Assembly (NCBI GenBank): GCA_963556145.1
Contig: OY744469.1
Coordinates: 3,320,767 to 3,384,766 of the forward strand
DNA: 64,000 nt
Origin: Hygrocybe punicea
Lineage: Eukaryota; Basidiomycota; Agaricomycetes; Agaricales; Hygrophoraceae
Reading direction: 5' to 3'
Shown here: positions 2,871 to 13,327 of the stretch, piece after piece
How the letters are laid out: every line of letters starts with the position of its first letter
How positions within the stretch are numbered: position 1 is the stretch's first letter
Position numbers and translations under genes: made by a program
The notes under the pieces: generated by a model
What the model was told of the DNA's origin: nothing
Database searches by the model: none
What the model saw: only the letters and a program-made list of their open reading frames with translations

Positions 2871-2889
2871 GATGGTGGTGGCCACAGCC

Positions 2890-3205
2890 TTGACTATCCT
2901 CGTCCCGTCATCATTGTCCTCGCCATCATCATCCTTGTTGTCATCGTCGTCCTCGTCATTGCCGTCATCATCCTCATCCTCGTCGTCCTCATCCTCGTCG
3001 TCCCCATCCTCATTCTCGTCGTCATTGTCCTTGTGCCTGTCATCCCTGTCATCCTTGTCCCCGTCCTTGTCGTCCTTGTCCCTGGCCTCGTCGTCCTTGT
3101 CTTCGTCATCCTTGTCCTCATCCTCATCATTGCCGTGTCATCCGCGGAGGGTCTTGCCGCCCGTCGTTATTGTCCTCCTCGTCGTCCTCCTCGTCGGTGT
3201 TGTTG
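2890..3205. repeat. Imperfect GTCNTC-type trinucleotide tract
   Basis: Directly beside the purine tract is a degenerate CGTCCTCATC repeat. It gives long Arg/Thr/Met- or Ser-rich ORFs that are not genes. Together the two tracts fill the middle of the hAT element. Confidence 0.8.
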
Positions 3206-3925: not shown

Positions 3926-3930
3926 CTGGC

Positions 3931-4487
3931 TGTTAGAGGCGTGCAACTCCGGAAGGATCGGAGTTCTTCGGAGGAGCGGAGACGTCAACTCTTGAAGTAG
4001 GTTCACTACTTCCTTAAGTCGTATTGAGAAGACGTGGACGGAGCGGAGTTAGTCCGGAGTTCCGGACTAAGTACTAAGATAACTAATGAGCTTAAGGGAA
4101 AGCCTTAAGTTTGAGAGTGGGTAAGAAATAAGGAACTCAAGTTGATTTTCTGAACGGAGTTACAGGACATTGTAGTTCTAGTTTATATACTTGGTAAACT
4201 AATTGTCATGTCCTTGGAGACGTGAAGACAATATGAACTCCGGAAAGAGGACCGGAGTTCGGAAGAAAATAAAAGGGATAAAAAGGTTGCTATGTACGGT
4301 GACAAGTAAACAAAGGGGAGGAAGAGAAAAGGAGGTCGGAGTAAACGGAGATGGGGAAGAATAGTATTTAACAAGAGAAGAACAATAACGTACGCGAGAA
4401 GATAAGATAAGATAAGATAAGATAAGTCGGCGGAAAAGTCCGGAGCGGAGTTCGTCGGAATCCGGCGGAGCTGCATGGGATATGACA
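3931..4487 (-). repeat. 3' LTR of the chromovirus
   Basis: 557 bp, identical to 9315-9871 except at four positions. At all four this copy keeps CG where the other has TG or CA. It contains a (GATAA)n run near 4395-4425. Confidence 0.97.
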
Positions 4488-4500
4488 GTATCTCCCCCTT
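4488..4500 (-). other. Polypurine tract of the chromovirus
   Basis: On the minus strand AAGGGGGAGATAC directly abuts the 3' LTR, the expected plus-strand primer position. Confidence 0.7.
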
Positions 4501-4609
4501 AGCGTCGAACCCTTGAGACGCCTGTGGAACAAAGGGAGAACCGCAGCGGAGTTCGAAGCGGAGGGCCTACGGTATAAAACAAACTCCTGGCCAGGAGACA
4601 ACCCAAAAG

Positions 4610-5446
4610 ATGTCGTCCTCGCAATTATCGTCCTCGCAAGAGATAGCCGCGCGCATCAAGGAGATGGAGCGCGAATTCGCCGAAATGAGGGCAAAAGAGG
4701 AGGCAGAAGAACGGAGAAAAGCGGAGGACGAGAGGAAGAAAGCGGAAGAGGAGAGGAGACAGAAGATCCAGGTGGAGGAGGAAATAAAGAAGAAAACGGC
4801 GGCAGAGGAGGAGAAAAAGAAAGTGGAGGCAGCGGAGGAGGGGCCCTCAAGTGCGGAGAAGGGGAAGAGAAAAAGAGACGGGTAAGCAAAGGCACATAAA
4901 TGATAGACCGGAGTTGACTACAGAAGCAGGGCCGTACAATGCAAGGCGTGCGCGGAACGCCGGGAAAACTGCGTGTGGCCCGCGTCCGGAAAGGCGCGGA
5001 GTTGCGATGCATGTAAGAAGAGGAAAGCGCGATGCGAGGTAGATGGTGAAGAGGGTGGAGTGAAGAAGAAAAAGAAAAAGGAGGAAAAGGAGGAATCCGG
5101 ATCGGAGTACCGCGGAGTGGAGCCCGCGGTAAAGAAGCCGCTGACGAGGACGGAGCAGCTTCTTCACAAGCTGCTCCGGGCGACAGAAGAAAACACGGCG
5201 ATGTTGGGACGGGTCGCGGAGGCATGCGAGGGGGTATGGGACACCGTGGAGGATCTCCGCGAACATGCGGCTCAATGGGCCGACCATCTGAGGAACTTAG
5301 AGTTCCTCAGAGATAATTCATACGAGCTCCGGAAGTACACTCCGGAGTCCGAGGACATCGCGCCGGAGGAGACGGAAACGGAGTGGGAAGAGGGGGATTT
5401 TTTGGGGAAAGGAGGAAACCTTGAAAAGAGTCCGCGAAAATCGTAA
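4610..5446 (+). CDS. Antisense accessory gene of the chromovirus: coiled coil plus Zn2Cys6-like cluster
   Basis: Two exons, 4610-4881 and 4930-5446, joined by a 48-bp GT-AG intron (4882-4929) that keeps the frame; about 262 aa. The N-terminal 80 residues are a Lys/Glu coiled coil ending in the basic stretch KGKRKRDG. Right after the intron comes a cysteine array spaced C-X2-C-X6-C-X10-C-X2-C-X6-C, the spacing of a fungal binuclear zinc cluster but with the basic half second. Then follow a Lys-rich stretch, a helical region and an acidic C-terminus. It starts 122 bp inside the 3' LTR and runs opposite to pol, ending 10 bp from the pol stop, so the LTR may supply its promoter. A nuclear DNA- or RNA-binding regulator is a guess. 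No upstream exon was found. Confidence 0.7.
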
Positions 5447-5456
5447 ATAGACAGAA

Positions 5457-8400
5457 TTAATAGGACGGGCCCGGTTTCGAAGGATAAGTGGAATGAAAGT
5501 CCGAAACGAGCTCAGTAGCATGTCCAAGTTCGGAGGCCAAGATCCAAGAAGTTTCTTCGTCAGTGCCTTCGTAGCCCTCCCAACGTACAAGGTACAGTAG
5601 CTTGCAGGCATGACGGCGGTTGTCGATCTTGGAATCGAGTATTTCGGAGATCTCAAACTCCGGTTCTCCGTCGACAACGACCGGAGGAGGCAGAGGTTGG
5701 ACACGGTTAGGAATGGTATTCGGAGTCGCCGGTTCGAGCTGAGAGACATGATAGACCGGGTGAACAGAGCGGAGAACCTCCAGAAGACGGAGGGTATATG
5801 AGTGAGTACCGGCCTTAGCAATAACTTTAAAAGGCCCCAAGTTCTTCTCAGAAAGTTTCTTGGAGGGTCTAGTAGTCCGGAAATGCTCAGCTTTGACGTA
5901 GACGGAATCCGAAACCTTGAAGTCCGGAGGCGGAGCACGCTTCAAGTCCACGTAGTGTTGATAACGTTGTTGTGCCTCAGAGATGGTTTGTCGAAGTTGT
6001 TGATGTAACTCATCGAGGTCCACAGCGAATTTTCGTGCGTGGGCGGAGGAGAGGTCGCGCTCCGGGTGAACAGAAAGGTTAGGGTGGTAACCTTTATTGG
6101 CAAAGAAAGGAGAAACTCCGGTAGTGGCGTTTGGAGCGTTGTTGTAAGCAAATTCCGCAAGAGGAAGGAGGGACGACCAATTATCTTGCTGATAACTGCA
6201 ATAAACGCGGAGATATTGCTCAAGGGTTTGATTGACGCGTTCCGTTTGGCCATCGCCTTCAGGATGATAACCGGAGGTAAAGTGGAGTTTCATGTCGAGG
6301 GCCTTTCCGAGAGACCGGAAAAAATGGGAAACAAATTCCGTGCCTCTATCGGAGGTGACGTGACTAGGAACTCCGTGCTTAGAAAAAACGTGAATAAGGA
6401 AAAGATGTGCGAGTTGGGGGGAAGTAATCGTATCGTAGGTTGGAATAAAGATCCCTTGCTTGGAAAGACGGTCAACCACAACTAGGATGGCCGTAAATCC
6501 TTCGGAGTCCGGAAGTTGTTCGATGAAATCCATGGAAATTGAATTCCATGGTTTCTCCGGAATAGGGAGCTGCTTAAGCAATCTGTAAGGACGATGCCGA
6601 GGGGTTTTGGATCTCGCGCAGGTTGTGCAAGACTTGCAGTAATCACGGACAAAAGTCCGGAGTCCGGGCCAGGTGTATTCCCACCGGATGATTTCGAGAG
6701 TCTTGTTTTGCCCGAAGTGTCCTGCAGTAGGATGATCATGTTTGGAACGCAAAATCCGGAGTCGTAGGTCATTGACATCGGGGACATAGATACGATTATC
6801 GAGGTGTAGAAAACCTAAATCGTCGATAGACCATCGAGGATCTGGGCCGGAGGTGGTACGGGAAACATGTCCGGAGGCAATAGGATCAACCTGTAGTCCG
6901 GAGATGATATCGGAGTGAAGGGAATCGACGTCTATGGTGAATCCGGCACCAAGGACTACATCTTCGAGGGAAGTCGCTCGGAGGGACGAAGCCAATTGTT
7001 CCGGCCCAAAAACAGGGCGGAAATTGTGAGGATTGGCTTTGGCGTAGTCGCTATCTCCCCCTTTAGCGTAGACGTCCCAGCGTCGAGTAAGGGTATCGGG
7101 CTTAGTGCCAAGCTTGCCTGGGCGAAAGCGGATAACAAAGTTGAAGCGGGAAAGGAACTCCGACCAGCGGGCTTGACGGCGGGTAAGTAAGCGGACGGTG
7201 GAGAAGTACTCCAAATTCTTGTGGTCGGTGATAACGTCGACCGGAGTAGCAGTACCTTCCAAATAATGCCGCCAGGCAGTGAAAGCGTCGAAGATGGCAA
7301 GGAGTTCCTTGTCATGGGTATCGTAGTTCAACTCCGAGTCCAAAAGGGTACGAGACCGGAAAGCAACCGGATGAATTTCACCGTCAGGATGGCGTACGGA
7401 GAGAATGGAAGCAACGGCGTAATCGGAAGCATCAGTCTCCACCAGAGTGTCAAACTCGGGTGACCAATGGGAAAGGATTGGAGTGGAAATGAAAGCGGAC
7501 TTCAAGTCATTGAAGGCGGAACGACACTTACCATCGAAATTCCATTGTAACCCTTTACGAGTGAGCCGGGTAAGTGGAATAGTGATGGAGGAATAGTCCG
7601 GAATGAAACGCCGGTGAAAATTGGCGAATCCAAGGAAGGATTGAACATCTTTGATCTTCTGGGGTTCCGGCCAATCCTGGATAGTTTGGACCTTGGCAGG
7701 ATCCATAGAAAGGCCTTGGGGGGAAAGAATGTAACCCAAGTATTCCACCGTGTCAACGCCAAAAGAGCACTTCTCGGCGTTGGCATAGAGGCCGTGTTTC
7801 CGCAGTCGTCGGAGGACCTCGCGGACATGGTCTACATGATCAGCGGGGTCATCGGAATAGATAAGGATGTCGTCAAGGTAAACAATGACAGAGACGTCAA
7901 GGAGGTCGGAAAAAATATCGTTGACGAAGTGTTGGAAAGCCGCCGGGGCGTTAGTAAGACCTTCCGGAATTACCAACCATTCAAACGAGCCATAGCGAGT
8001 GCGGAAAGCTGTTTTCCACTCATCACCTTCGGCAATCCGGACTAAATGGTAGGCGTGTTTAAGGTCGATTTTAGTGTAAATGTGCGCAGTCCGGGGAGCG
8101 TCGAGAAGGTCCGCCGTAAGAGGGATAGGATAGCGGTCCTTCTTCGTGATACGATTGAGTCCTCGGAAATCTACGCAAAGTCGAAGACAGACATTTTTCT
8201 TCCGAGAGAAAAGAATGGGAGCTCCGCAGGGAGAATGGGAGGAGCGGACGAAACCCGCCTGGAGATTCTTGTCAAGGAATTCCCGAAGGGTCTCGAGCTC
8301 TAAGGGTGAAATAGAGTAAATCGGGCCAAAAGGAGGTTTTGCACCATCCTCTAAATTAATTTTGAGGTCGTAAGGACGGTGTTCAGGGAGGTTCCAAGCC

Positions 8401-9074
8401 TTCGTCTTGCTAAAGACGTCAGCGAATTCGTGATACTCTTCAGGGATATTGTGAAGGTCCACGGAGGGTTCGGAGGACTCCGGAGGGCTGTAGCTTGCAG
8501 AGCGACCGGTGGCGTCAGGTAATCGGACTTCCATACGGAAGACCTGAGTGCTGGGTACTTTGCAACCACGCAAAAAGGCTTGAGCGCTGACAAAGGAGAT
8601 GTCAGGCTTCGAAGCGGATGGTGAAGGAGGTTCGGGCGGAATAGACGGAGAGGACGGAGGGGACGGAGGTCGTACTGGAGGGTCCGGAAGTGGTGCCTTG
8701 CTAGGCACCGGAGTCGACAACGGAGGCGCGGAATCAGAAGAACGGAATTTAACGCTATGCTCGATCCAGTCAATCAACGGATTGTATTTGGCAAGCCAGC
8801 TATATCCAAGAACTGCGGAAACAGACAGATCCAACGGAGTGACCAAAAATTCTAAGATTAGAATTTCACCAGTAGTAAAACGGACAGAGATAGATACACA
8901 TTTGTCGATGATTCCACCGGAGGAACCATCAAACAAGCAGAGGCGTTTCGGAGCAGTAGGAAAAATAGGAAGATTGTGAAGGGAACAAAACTCCGGGTCA
9001 ATGAAACAATGCGTCGATCCACAATCCACAAGGGTAACGATAAGCGTAGAAGAATGATAAAGAGAAATCGTCAA
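5457..9074 (-). CDS. pol: Pol polyprotein of the Ty3 chromovirus (PR-RT-RNaseH-IN-chromodomain)
   Basis: Uninterrupted frame of at least 1205 codons, open upstream to about 9216. Visible in order: a retropepsin-like segment with DCGSTHCFID near residue 17; RT with YLDDILIY near residue 400; RNase H (ETDASDYA, THDKELLAI); an H2C2 integrase zinc finger (CKSCTTCARSK) near 785; the integrase core with DFIEQL, TSDRGTEF and GQTERVNQ; and a C-terminal chromodomain (KLLYLVRWEGYEGTDEETSW) at about 1150-1200. Chromodomain integrases of this clade target heterochromatin marks, which fits the surroundings. There is no ATG near the protease; the frame normally continues from Gag, which is missing here. 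Members of this group usually encode Gag-Pol together. Confidence 0.97.
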   Translation of the reverse strand: MTISLYHSSTLIVTLVDCGSTHCFIDPEFCSLHNLPIFPTAPKRLCLFDGSSGGIIDKCVSISVRFTTGEILILEFLVTPLDLSVSAVLGYSWLAKYNPLIDWIEHSVKFRSSDSAPPLSTPVPSKAPLPDPPVRPPSPPSSPSIPPEPPSPSASKPDISFVSAQAFLRGCKVPSTQVFRMEVRLPDATGRSASYSPPESSEPSVDLHNIPEEYHEFADVFSKTKAWNLPEHRPYDLKINLEDGAKPPFGPIYSISPLELETLREFLDKNLQAGFVRSSHSPCGAPILFSRKKNVCLRLCVDFRGLNRITKKDRYPIPLTADLLDAPRTAHIYTKIDLKHAYHLVRIAEGDEWKTAFRTRYGSFEWLVIPEGLTNAPAAFQHFVNDIFSDLLDVSVIVYLDDILIYSDDPADHVDHVREVLRRLRKHGLYANAEKCSFGVDTVEYLGYILSPQGLSMDPAKVQTIQDWPEPQKIKDVQSFLGFANFHRRFIPDYSSITIPLTRLTRKGLQWNFDGKCRSAFNDLKSAFISTPILSHWSPEFDTLVETDASDYAVASILSVRHPDGEIHPVAFRSRTLLDSELNYDTHDKELLAIFDAFTAWRHYLEGTATPVDVITDHKNLEYFSTVRLLTRRQARWSEFLSRFNFVIRFRPGKLGTKPDTLTRRWDVYAKGGDSDYAKANPHNFRPVFGPEQLASSLRATSLEDVVLGAGFTIDVDSLHSDIISGLQVDPIASGHVSRTTSGPDPRWSIDDLGFLHLDNRIYVPDVNDLRLRILRSKHDHPTAGHFGQNKTLEIIRWEYTWPGLRTFVRDYCKSCTTCARSKTPRHRPYRLLKQLPIPEKPWNSISMDFIEQLPDSEGFTAILVVVDRLSKQGIFIPTYDTITSPQLAHLFLIHVFSKHGVPSHVTSDRGTEFVSHFFRSLGKALDMKLHFTSGYHPEGDGQTERVNQTLEQYLRVYCSYQQDNWSSLLPLAEFAYNNAPNATTGVSPFFANKGYHPNLSVHPERDLSSAHARKFAVDLDELHQQLRQTISEAQQRYQHYVDLKRAPPPDFKVSDSVYVKAEHFRTTRPSKKLSEKNLGPFKVIAKAGTHSYTLRLLEVLRSVHPVYHVSQLEPATPNTIPNRVQPLPPPVVVDGEPEFEISEILDSKIDNRRHACKLLYLVRWEGYEGTDEETSWILASELGHATELVSDFHSTYPSKPGPSY

Positions 9075-9281
9075 GGAATCGTTAGAAAGAGCGGACGTGT
9101 TGAGTTTTACTTCCGGTAGCGCACAGTCAGGTTCAACACAGCCTACATCCTGTGCCGGAGTATGCAGACTGCTCTCTATTTTTCCGGTTCCTCTAGAGAA
9201 TCGGAACTAGAGACCGGAGGTGCGGAGGAAGTGGAGGTTCTTCGTTGGGAGAAGCCTTGGAAAGACATGATCAAATGTAAA
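9075..9281 (-). pseudogene. gag stub of the chromovirus
   Basis: An ATG at 9268 opens a 30-codon frame (MSFQGFSQRR..., stop at 9176-9178). The pol frame picks up about 40 codons later in another frame with CVEPDCALPEV. A normal gag is about 1 kb with capsid and a CCHC knuckle; none is present between LTR and protease. This reads as a large internal deletion. It could instead be a defective lineage lacking gag, since the target duplication is intact. Confidence 0.6.
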
Positions 9282-9292
9282 GGGAATACGAC

Positions 9293-9302
9293 TCAAGAGT
9301 TG
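9293..9302 (-). other. Possible self-priming site of the chromovirus
   Basis: TCAAGAGTTG (plus strand) is exactly complementary to CAACTCTTGA at 9370-9379 in the 5' LTR. Elements related to Tf1 and sushi prime reverse transcription with their own RNA 5' end. No tRNA-like TGG primer site follows the LTR. The site is about 13 bp from the LTR rather than adjacent, so this is tentative. Confidence 0.3.
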
Positions 9303-9314
9303 TTCAGAAAATAC

Positions 9315-9871
9315 TGTTAGAGGCATGCAACTCCGGAAGGATTGGAGTTCTTCGGAGGAGCGGAGACGTCAACTCTTGAAGTAGGTTCACTACTTCCTTA
9401 AGTCGTATTGAGAAGACGTGGACGGAGCGGAGTTAGTCCGGAGTTCCGGACTAAGTACTAAGATAACTAATGAGCTTAAGGGAAAGCCTTAAGTTTGAGA
9501 GTGGGTAAGAAATAAGGAACTCAAGTTGATTTTCTGAACGGAGTTACAGGACATTGTAGTTCTAGTTTATATACTTGGTAAACTAATTGTCATGTCCTTG
9601 GAGACGTGAAGACAATATGAACTCCGGAAAGAGGACTGGAGTTCGGAAGAAAATAAAAGGGATAAAAAGGTTGCTATGTACGGTGACAAGTAAACAAAGG
9701 GGAGGAAGAGAAAAGGAGGTCGGAGTAAACGGAGATGGGGAAGAATAGTATTTAACAAGAGAAGAACAATAACGTACGCGAGAAGATAAGATAAGATAAG
9801 ATAAGATAAGTCGGTGGAAAAGTCCGGAGCGGAGTTCGTCGGAATCCGGCGGAGCTGCATGGGATATGACA
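9315..9871 (-). repeat. 5' LTR of the chromovirus
   Basis: 557 bp with TG...CA ends. The minus-strand promoter should lie here. Four CpG-transition differences separate it from the 3' LTR. Confidence 0.97.
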
Positions 9872-10147
9872 CTGGCGTTCATTGTAAGAAGGGTGCATAT
9901 GAAGGGAGGAAATGGTCACTCACCTGAAACGAAGAGATTGACGGATGCAATGTGCTACTGGTATTCAGCCAAGATGCTGAACACCATAGAATCTTCGTCA
10001 TCTCCAGCTTGGAAATCTACAATGCAATGAAATCAGCAATCTCCATGATAAGTGGGCTGAACATCAGGGTGAATGACCAACATACCCTGGATGACCAGTC
10101 CTTCAACTCGAAACCCACTCTTGCTCTCTTCTGCAAAGTCAGCCGAG

Positions 10148-12736: not shown

Positions 12737-13327
12737 TTATCTTGGTCCTTCTTTCTTGATACTCCCACTCAAGCAAGGTTGTAGTCCCATTGCACATGTG
12801 AATTTCCAGTGTTTGTTGTGCAGGAGTGGTTTCATAAGGATGTCAGCAACCATGTCATTTGTGGAGCACCAATGTATGATACACTCTCCTTTTGCTACCA
12901 GATCATCCCTGATGTAATGGTATGTTCATTGTATATGTTTGGTTTGAGCTCAGAATCGGAATTGTGGATTGTGAGATAGAATAATTGCTGCTTGATTGTC
13001 ACATTTGAGTGCTATGGCCTCCTTCTGGTTGTGTCTGATTTTGTCAAACAATTTGCATAGCCATGCAACATGTTGTCCAGCATTGCTCAGCCAAATGTAT
13101 CTGGATTCCATGAATGATAGTGAAACCATGGATTGGAGCTTGCTTGACCATCCGATGGCACCATGGTTGCTAATAAATATGTACCCTGAGGTGGGGTGAG
13201 ATGTGTCATGGTCACCACTCCAGTTCGCATCTGAATATCTGTGGAAGTCCATGTCCATGTTGACATTGGAGCCATCATAGGCTAGCATGAGGTCTCATGT
13301 GCCTTTCAGGTATCTCAGTGCTCTCTC

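Follow-up and report, generated by a model that had tools for sequence, protein, structure and literature searches.

A spliced antisense gene for a predicted zinc-cluster protein in a Ty3 chromovirus of Hygrocybe punicea

The locus

The stretch of DNA analysed here, called the window, comprises 64,000 nucleotides from the basidiomycete Hygrocybe punicea (assembly GCA_963556145.1, contig OY744469.1, positions 3,320,767 to 3,384,766). Its minus strand carries, at 3931-9871, a Ty3 chromovirus bounded by long terminal repeats (LTRs) and a target-site duplication, and inside that element lies a gene that runs the other way. This plus-strand gene is the subject of what follows.

The first exon of the antisense gene (4610-4881) begins at a conserved start, MSSSQEIAARIK, which comes after a short repeat in the window's family, and encodes a charged coil rich in glutamate, lysine and arginine together with a basic KRKR. 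A GT-AG intron of 48 bp (4882-4929, GTAAGC...GCAG) separates it from exon 2 (4930-5446), which ends in the stop TAA; the joined exons encode 262 amino acids. The gene is situated between pol and the 3' LTR, and its end at 5446 stands 10 bp from the end of the pol open reading frame (ORF) at 5457. An earlier reading, made from the letters of this DNA without database searches (the sequence-only reading), had described a two-exon gene at this place, converging with pol across a 10-bp gap and encoding a coiled coil and a basic patch. Its coordinates, splice, frame and peptide features are all borne out.

The surrounding element has what defines a Ty3 chromovirus: a reverse transcriptase, an RNase H, an integrase with a C-terminal chromodomain, LTRs and a short duplication. 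The LTRs are direct repeats on the minus strand, the 3' LTR with TG...CA ends on the low-coordinate side (3931-4487) and the 5' LTR on the high-coordinate side (9315-9871); the pair is 557 bp long and differs at 4 of 558 compared positions. The 5-bp duplication, CTGGC, stands at 3926-3930 and 9872-9876. The polypurine tract AAGGGGGAGATAC (4488-4501, minus strand) adjoins the 3' LTR and is identical or nearly so in 12 of 14 aligned sequences. The pol ORF (5457-9206, minus strand) has 1249 codons from stop to stop, and its ATG-initiated part (5457-8534) gives Pfam matches to reverse transcriptase, RNase H, integrase, a Tf2-type SH3 domain and a chromodomain (Chromo, 25.8 bits against a cut-off of 25.1). 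Within pol, at 7050-7075, there is also a second minus-strand sequence resembling a polypurine tract, AAAGGGGGAGATA, a near-match to the tract at 4488-4501; it may serve this Ty3 chromovirus as a central polypurine tract.

The copy in the window is short of about 1.07 kb of gag, with a break at 9231-9237 where 7 bp are common to both sides. Because of this deletion, the window copy is probably non-autonomous, having kept pol and the antisense gene.

The gene in its family

A search of the 92.2-Mb genome gave at least 40 copies of the window's family (76 candidates, 40 scored). Among the other copies having both LTRs, 16 of 17 are about 7.03 kb long; the remaining one measures 5.9 kb. The two LTRs of such a copy show 0-3 differences over about 557 positions, which marks these copies as young. 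One locus, L019 (G000:C8:2214800-2222300), shows self-nesting, with a full family copy inside the pol of a second.

The intron, 48 bp with GT...AG ends, is kept in all 40 family copies examined. The joined frame is open for at least 261 codons in 36 of them, ten of which stop seven codons early; the four exceptions are L009 (a nonsense codon), L043 and L044 (one base missing from exon 2) and L046 (a frameshift in exon 1). The six-cysteine pattern described below is in frame in 39 of the 40, L009 having a stop inside it. Were the intron retained, 39 of the 40 copies would run into a stop at codon 92-98. This, together with the recurrence of the gene and its intron in diverged copies, argues for more than chance.

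The gene also travels with pol. In an independent listing of pol copies, which puts their number at 40 or more, each of the 40 listed has the gene, whole or in pieces. Compared by eye, the spacing is the usual one in 37; in the other three, the gene or its pieces lie 6-15 kb off, a distance that nested insertions would produce, and one of these three has its pol split by a family copy.

Diverged relatives

A protein search of the genome for relatives of exon 2 led to 20 further loci, 5 belonging to the window's family and 15 diverged, the latter with 53-68% identity in the main exon 2 match. Beside the gene, on the opposite strand, stands the C-terminus of pol in 19 of these 20 loci (L062 being the sole locus with no pol match). 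The intron occupies the same place in the diverged copies, and its donor GTAAG is kept in 13 of 15; the donor is changed in L065, and the region is missing from L064.

Here, the length of the intron is informative. It is 50 bp in 8 of the 15 diverged loci, as opposed to 48 bp in the window's family, and the junction KRKRD|G-A is nevertheless in frame in all eight. Only removal of the intron would lead one to expect this. In L059 and L060 the intron is 43 bp and the junction is broken. Among the diverged loci, L058 alone is intact from the conserved start through the stop; in L056 and L057 the frame is open and ATT stands where the start should be.

Thus, an accident of one copy is ruled out by 40 family copies and by diverged relatives having the same gene. 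The sequence-only reading had named a lack of conservation of the ORF or the cysteines in other copies among the grounds that would refute it; both are in fact kept within the family and in diverged copies.

Selection on the antisense frame

The ratio of replacement to silent substitution rates (dN/dS) was obtained for exon 2 from six of the 15 diverged loci, those in which that exon is open. The nine omitted were L054, L061 and L063-L067, which have stops, frameshifts or truncations, and L057 and L060, which are duplicates. Pairing the window copy with each of the six gives a dN/dS of 0.12-0.20 at dS 1.1-1.7, and the full set of 28 pairs from eight sequences spans 0.07-0.31. In a control that compared frames (21 pairs, seven sequences), the gene frame had a median of 0.18 (range 0.10-0.29), and the five other frames had medians of 0.39, 0.75, 0.90, 1.24 and 1.65. 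The six diverged copies have a CpG ratio of 0.32-0.46, compared with 1.29 in the window, which may reflect decay by methylation.

For pol, dN/dS is 0.07-0.15 in the diverged loci and 0.56-0.86, at dS 0.03-0.05, in loci of the window's family. Comparison of the gene frame with pol indicates that selection constrains the antisense protein in the way it constrains pol, though somewhat less strongly. Within the young family, selection was not significant in a test having little power: 39 copies, the frameshifted L046 excluded, hold 44 silent, 61 replacement and 2 nonsense variants, where 37.7, 66.9 and 2.4 were expected (P 0.11).

On the copies compared, then, the gene structure, its coding capacity, the conservation of its intron and splice frame, and purifying selection upon it are established. 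The view of the sequence-only reading that a frame-keeping intron signals selection on a real protein, and that dN/dS across copies would reveal it, agrees with the intron kept in every family copy, the 36 open frames and the low ratios.

These ratios also bear on explanations in which the antisense frame is incidental. One is that an ORF on the sense strand is the real gene and the plus-strand frame its shadow. Sense frames of 189 and 146 amino acids do overlap the gene in the window, a sense frame of 222 codons exists in most full copies, L048 has one sense frame open across exon 2, and the second-lowest dN/dS in the control, 0.39, belongs to frame -1. The lowest belongs to the gene frame, however, and L048 aside, no sense frame spans exon 2 in nine copies checked (chosen for an open gene frame). 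The dN/dS control and the closed sense frames rule the sense-strand ORF out as the real gene, leaving it virtually no chance.

A second explanation holds that the antisense RNA alone matters, through silencing by double-stranded RNA. Convergent transcripts can form double-stranded RNA, and such a role has been proposed for plant elements (PMC7264820). Conservation specific to one frame, the kept cysteines and the kept splice frame are not explained by a role for the RNA alone, which makes this highly improbable. As a sole explanation, a noncoding RNA is ruled out by the frame-specific dN/dS; it may act in addition.

A third would make the gene a captured host gene, a passenger that brings the element no benefit. 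Zinc-cluster proteins are, of course, a fungal host family, and this genome contains 24 Fungal_trans stretches, that is, host fungal regulators. A mere passenger should not, however, show purifying selection between diverged copies, nor the constant company of pol just described, to which L062 is the one exception among the fetched loci. We regard this as very unlikely.

The predicted protein

The sequence-only reading called the protein Zn2Cys6-like from its cysteines, which lie at residues 95-126 (4940-5035, plus strand) with the spacing C-X2-C-X6-C-X10-C-X2-C-X6-C. That spacing is confirmed, and it falls within the Zn2Cys6 pattern (PF00172), C-X2-C-X6-C-X5-12-C-X2-C-X6-8-C, having six cysteines and an X10 loop. 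Over 10 aligned sequences, five of the cysteine columns are invariant and one is at 90%. The name stands in so far as the predicted fold of the cysteine domain gave 27 Foldseek matches of 27 to the Zn2Cys6 family, each of them weak; it falls short in the Pfam score, which at 12.1 bits for the whole protein and 18.4 for the domain alone misses the cut-off of 21 bits. The matches listed from the PDB are zinc clusters only, and the absence of other folds from them proves nothing. A PDB search by sequence with the antisense protein returned no zinc cluster. The domain is thus predicted, from the model, to fold like a Zn2Cys6 cluster.

The order of its parts is unusual. In the PF00172 profile, the lysine-rich half comes first. 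In the antisense protein, the lysine-rich half stands second and aligns to profile positions 1-15 (in the window copy, L048 and L056; not in the piece from L058); the first cysteine half alone gave no Pfam match in any of the four pieces tested. The two halves of the cluster are apparently swapped relative to the profile.

Beyond the cluster, a long helix (5147-5314, plus strand; exon 2 residues 73-128) is predicted by AlphaFold2 with block means of pLDDT between 87 and 97. Of its 16 a/d positions, 11 are hydrophobic when the best of the seven heptad registers is taken, and the helix is probably a dimerisation coil. The protein ends in an acidic tail (5350-5443, plus strand) of low pLDDT with a conserved tryptophan (WEEG). 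Prediction thus supports both the zinc-cluster fold and the helix.

Relatives of the protein are few. Among 5.8 billion proteins, repeated searches for homologues, including one with a 10-row alignment, returned a single protein, P0001, and a scan of viral contigs for homologues found none. Pfam found no Fungal_trans domain in the antisense protein. A hydrophobin search was uninformative, its controls being silent too.

Could the target of such a protein be RNA or Gag particles instead of DNA, so that it controls copy number or packaging? RNA binding does occur among small basic zinc-binding proteins, and the Gag of the full copy L011 contains a CCHC knuckle, to which an antagonist is conceivable. 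Yet the fold matches are all to DNA-binding zinc clusters rather than to knuckles, and Pfam found no retroviral zinc knuckle in the antisense protein. This role is accordingly rather unlikely.

Probable promoter and candidate binding sites

Between the polypurine tract and exon 1 lies a TATA box, TATAAAA (4573-4579, plus strand), 30 bp ahead of the ATG. Between it and the ATG is a palindrome, CTCCTGGCCAGGAG (4584-4597, plus strand), a candidate operator that occurs once in the window. Other families have the palindrome CTCCTGGACCAGGAG or a close variant, of the type CTCCTGG-A-CCAGGAG; the palindromes are 14-15 bp long. Conservation was counted on 14 of the 20 fetched loci (L049, L051, L052, L057, L060 and L064 being left out) and not from the alignment that had been chosen by the palindrome itself, in which the right arm is invariant. 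TATA box and palindrome are kept together in 13 of the 14, and in 11 of the 12 diverged loci; the exception, L054, has unrelated upstream sequence. The gene therefore seems to be served by a promoter of its own, placed in the internal region of the element.

The motif CGGAG is frequent across the element. It occurs 15 times in the LTR where 1.5 are expected from 200 approximate dinucleotide shuffles, 46 times in pol (11 expected) and 17 times in the gene (4.1 expected). The density is 12-27 per kb across these three parts of the element and falls to about 1 per kb elsewhere in the window.

A protein that binds DNA or chromatin need not regulate transcription. It might instead steer the pre-integration complex, either into the nucleus or towards sites, alongside the chromodomain of the integrase. 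The basic patches and the zinc cluster would suit this, and such nuclear roles have been proposed for plant antisense proteins (PMC7264820). The gene, however, seems to be driven by its own promoter, outside gag-pol, and its product has an acidic tail with an aromatic residue. Tails of this kind are more usual in transcription activators. We consider integration guidance unlikely, while giving it more weight than any of the other alternatives discussed.

Proposed role

The proposal that we find slightly easier to accept than to reject is that, through this antisense gene, the element encodes a nuclear, dimeric, DNA-binding regulator that tunes transcription of gag-pol and of its own gene in trans. 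Here, the gene would be transcribed from its TATA promoter toward pol, and the intron of 48-50 bp would be spliced out of the mRNA. The intron would outlast every round of retrotransposition, since it is the sense RNA that gets copied and the splice sites do not read in that strand; this argument follows established logic. The protein, with its charged N-terminal coil, basic patches, Zn2Cys6-type cluster, long helix and acidic tail, is laid out like a fungal dimeric regulator. It would enter the nucleus, dimerise and bind element DNA, with two candidate sites, the core-promoter palindrome of its own gene and the LTR with its many CGGAG motifs. It would then tune transcription across all copies. 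Expression, nuclear entry, DNA binding, the target sites and the choice between activation and repression are what we infer. The palindrome in the core promoter suggests negative autoregulation, which the gene may exert. The sequence-only reading had proposed that such a gene could control transcription, silencing or targeting of the element, and it may do so.

Three observations count against the proposed regulator: the missed PF00172 cut-off, the weakness of each fold match, and the enrichment of CGGAG all along the element, on account of which it is not established as an operator specific to the LTR.

A more specific version is tentative, and we would sooner expect it to fail than to hold. 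In it, a factor like HBZ of human T-cell leukaemia virus 1 (HTLV-1), having a zinc cluster with swapped halves, represses its own core promoter via the conserved palindrome and also acts in trans on the LTRs, rich in CGGAG, of all copies, so that the antisense gene of one element sets the activity of the whole family.

Relation to known systems

Among fungal regulators, the antisense protein resembles GAL4, PUT3, PPR1, Leu3, HAP1 and Pho7 in its six cysteines and, by prediction, in its two short helices and its fold. As in these regulators, GAL4 for example, the cluster is followed by a linker, a long helix and an acidic tail. Unlike them, the antisense protein has an apparently swapped order of halves, a Pfam score below the cut-off and no Fungal_trans domain, and it is encoded by a retroelement.

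HBZ is the product of a spliced antisense gene at the 3' end of a retroelement, a nuclear protein resembling a transcription factor, which lowers transcription from the 5' LTR (PMC10186651). The fungal gene shares with HBZ and with the APH genes of HTLV-2/3/4 its antisense orientation, its splicing, its place at the 3' end of an LTR retroelement and a product resembling a transcription factor. It differs in that HBZ is a bZIP protein whose gene starts within the LTR, whereas the fungal gene encodes a zinc cluster and has its TATA box in the internal region; no homology is claimed.

Antisense genes between pol and the 3' LTR are described in Grande, RIRE2, Retand, PvRetro13 and Boty (PMC7264820, PMC11963269). 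One of them is brtn of the Boty-like elements of Botrytis cinerea, an antisense gene reviewed as having this very placement in a fungal chromodomain LTR element (PMC7264820; also named in PMC8365987 and PMC4227169) and compared here by that description. Gene23 of maize Grande shares the placement, is described with a promoter of its own, as the fungal gene seems to have, and encodes a nuclear protein (PMC7264820). The TRP28 protein of Retand is predicted to bind DNA (PMC11963269), and the function of the plant antisense genes is reported as unknown (PMC7264820). Grande, RIRE2 and Retand differ from the present case, in the descriptions drawn on, as plant elements with other domains, Retand being a non-chromovirus. 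The word "intron" is absent from the main text of the Retand paper (PMC11963269), as are "antisense", "additional ORF" and "zinc" from the main text of the papers on Tcn1 and the Laccaria element. Titles and abstracts held no zinc-cluster antisense gene in a retrotransposon, in a search whose coverage lay outside most subscription journals. Thus, the position of the gene is already known from plant, fungal and retroviral elements; the combination of zinc cluster and intron is absent from the titles and abstracts searched.

Elsewhere in the window

Apart from the chromovirus, the window contains an array of direct repeats of 73 bp (128-1873; at least 17 copies, 66-82% alike), a minisatellite of eight bases, GAGAGGGG (2720-2840), adjoining a C/T-rich stretch (2880-3200), and a minus-strand ORF (12950-13288) that, by eye, resembles the RNase H end of a Ty1/copia element.

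Implications

The locus offers, in a single young family with many near-identical copies, an antisense gene whose DNA-binding fold is recognisable, if predicted, whose splice is clear, whose promoter is conserved and whose selection has been measured. This, in turn, makes directly testable the question of whether retrotransposons encode regulators of their own transcription. Further, the swapped halves of the zinc cluster, if real, would let one examine in a natural case how DNA is read by the pseudo-symmetric Zn2Cys6 fold.
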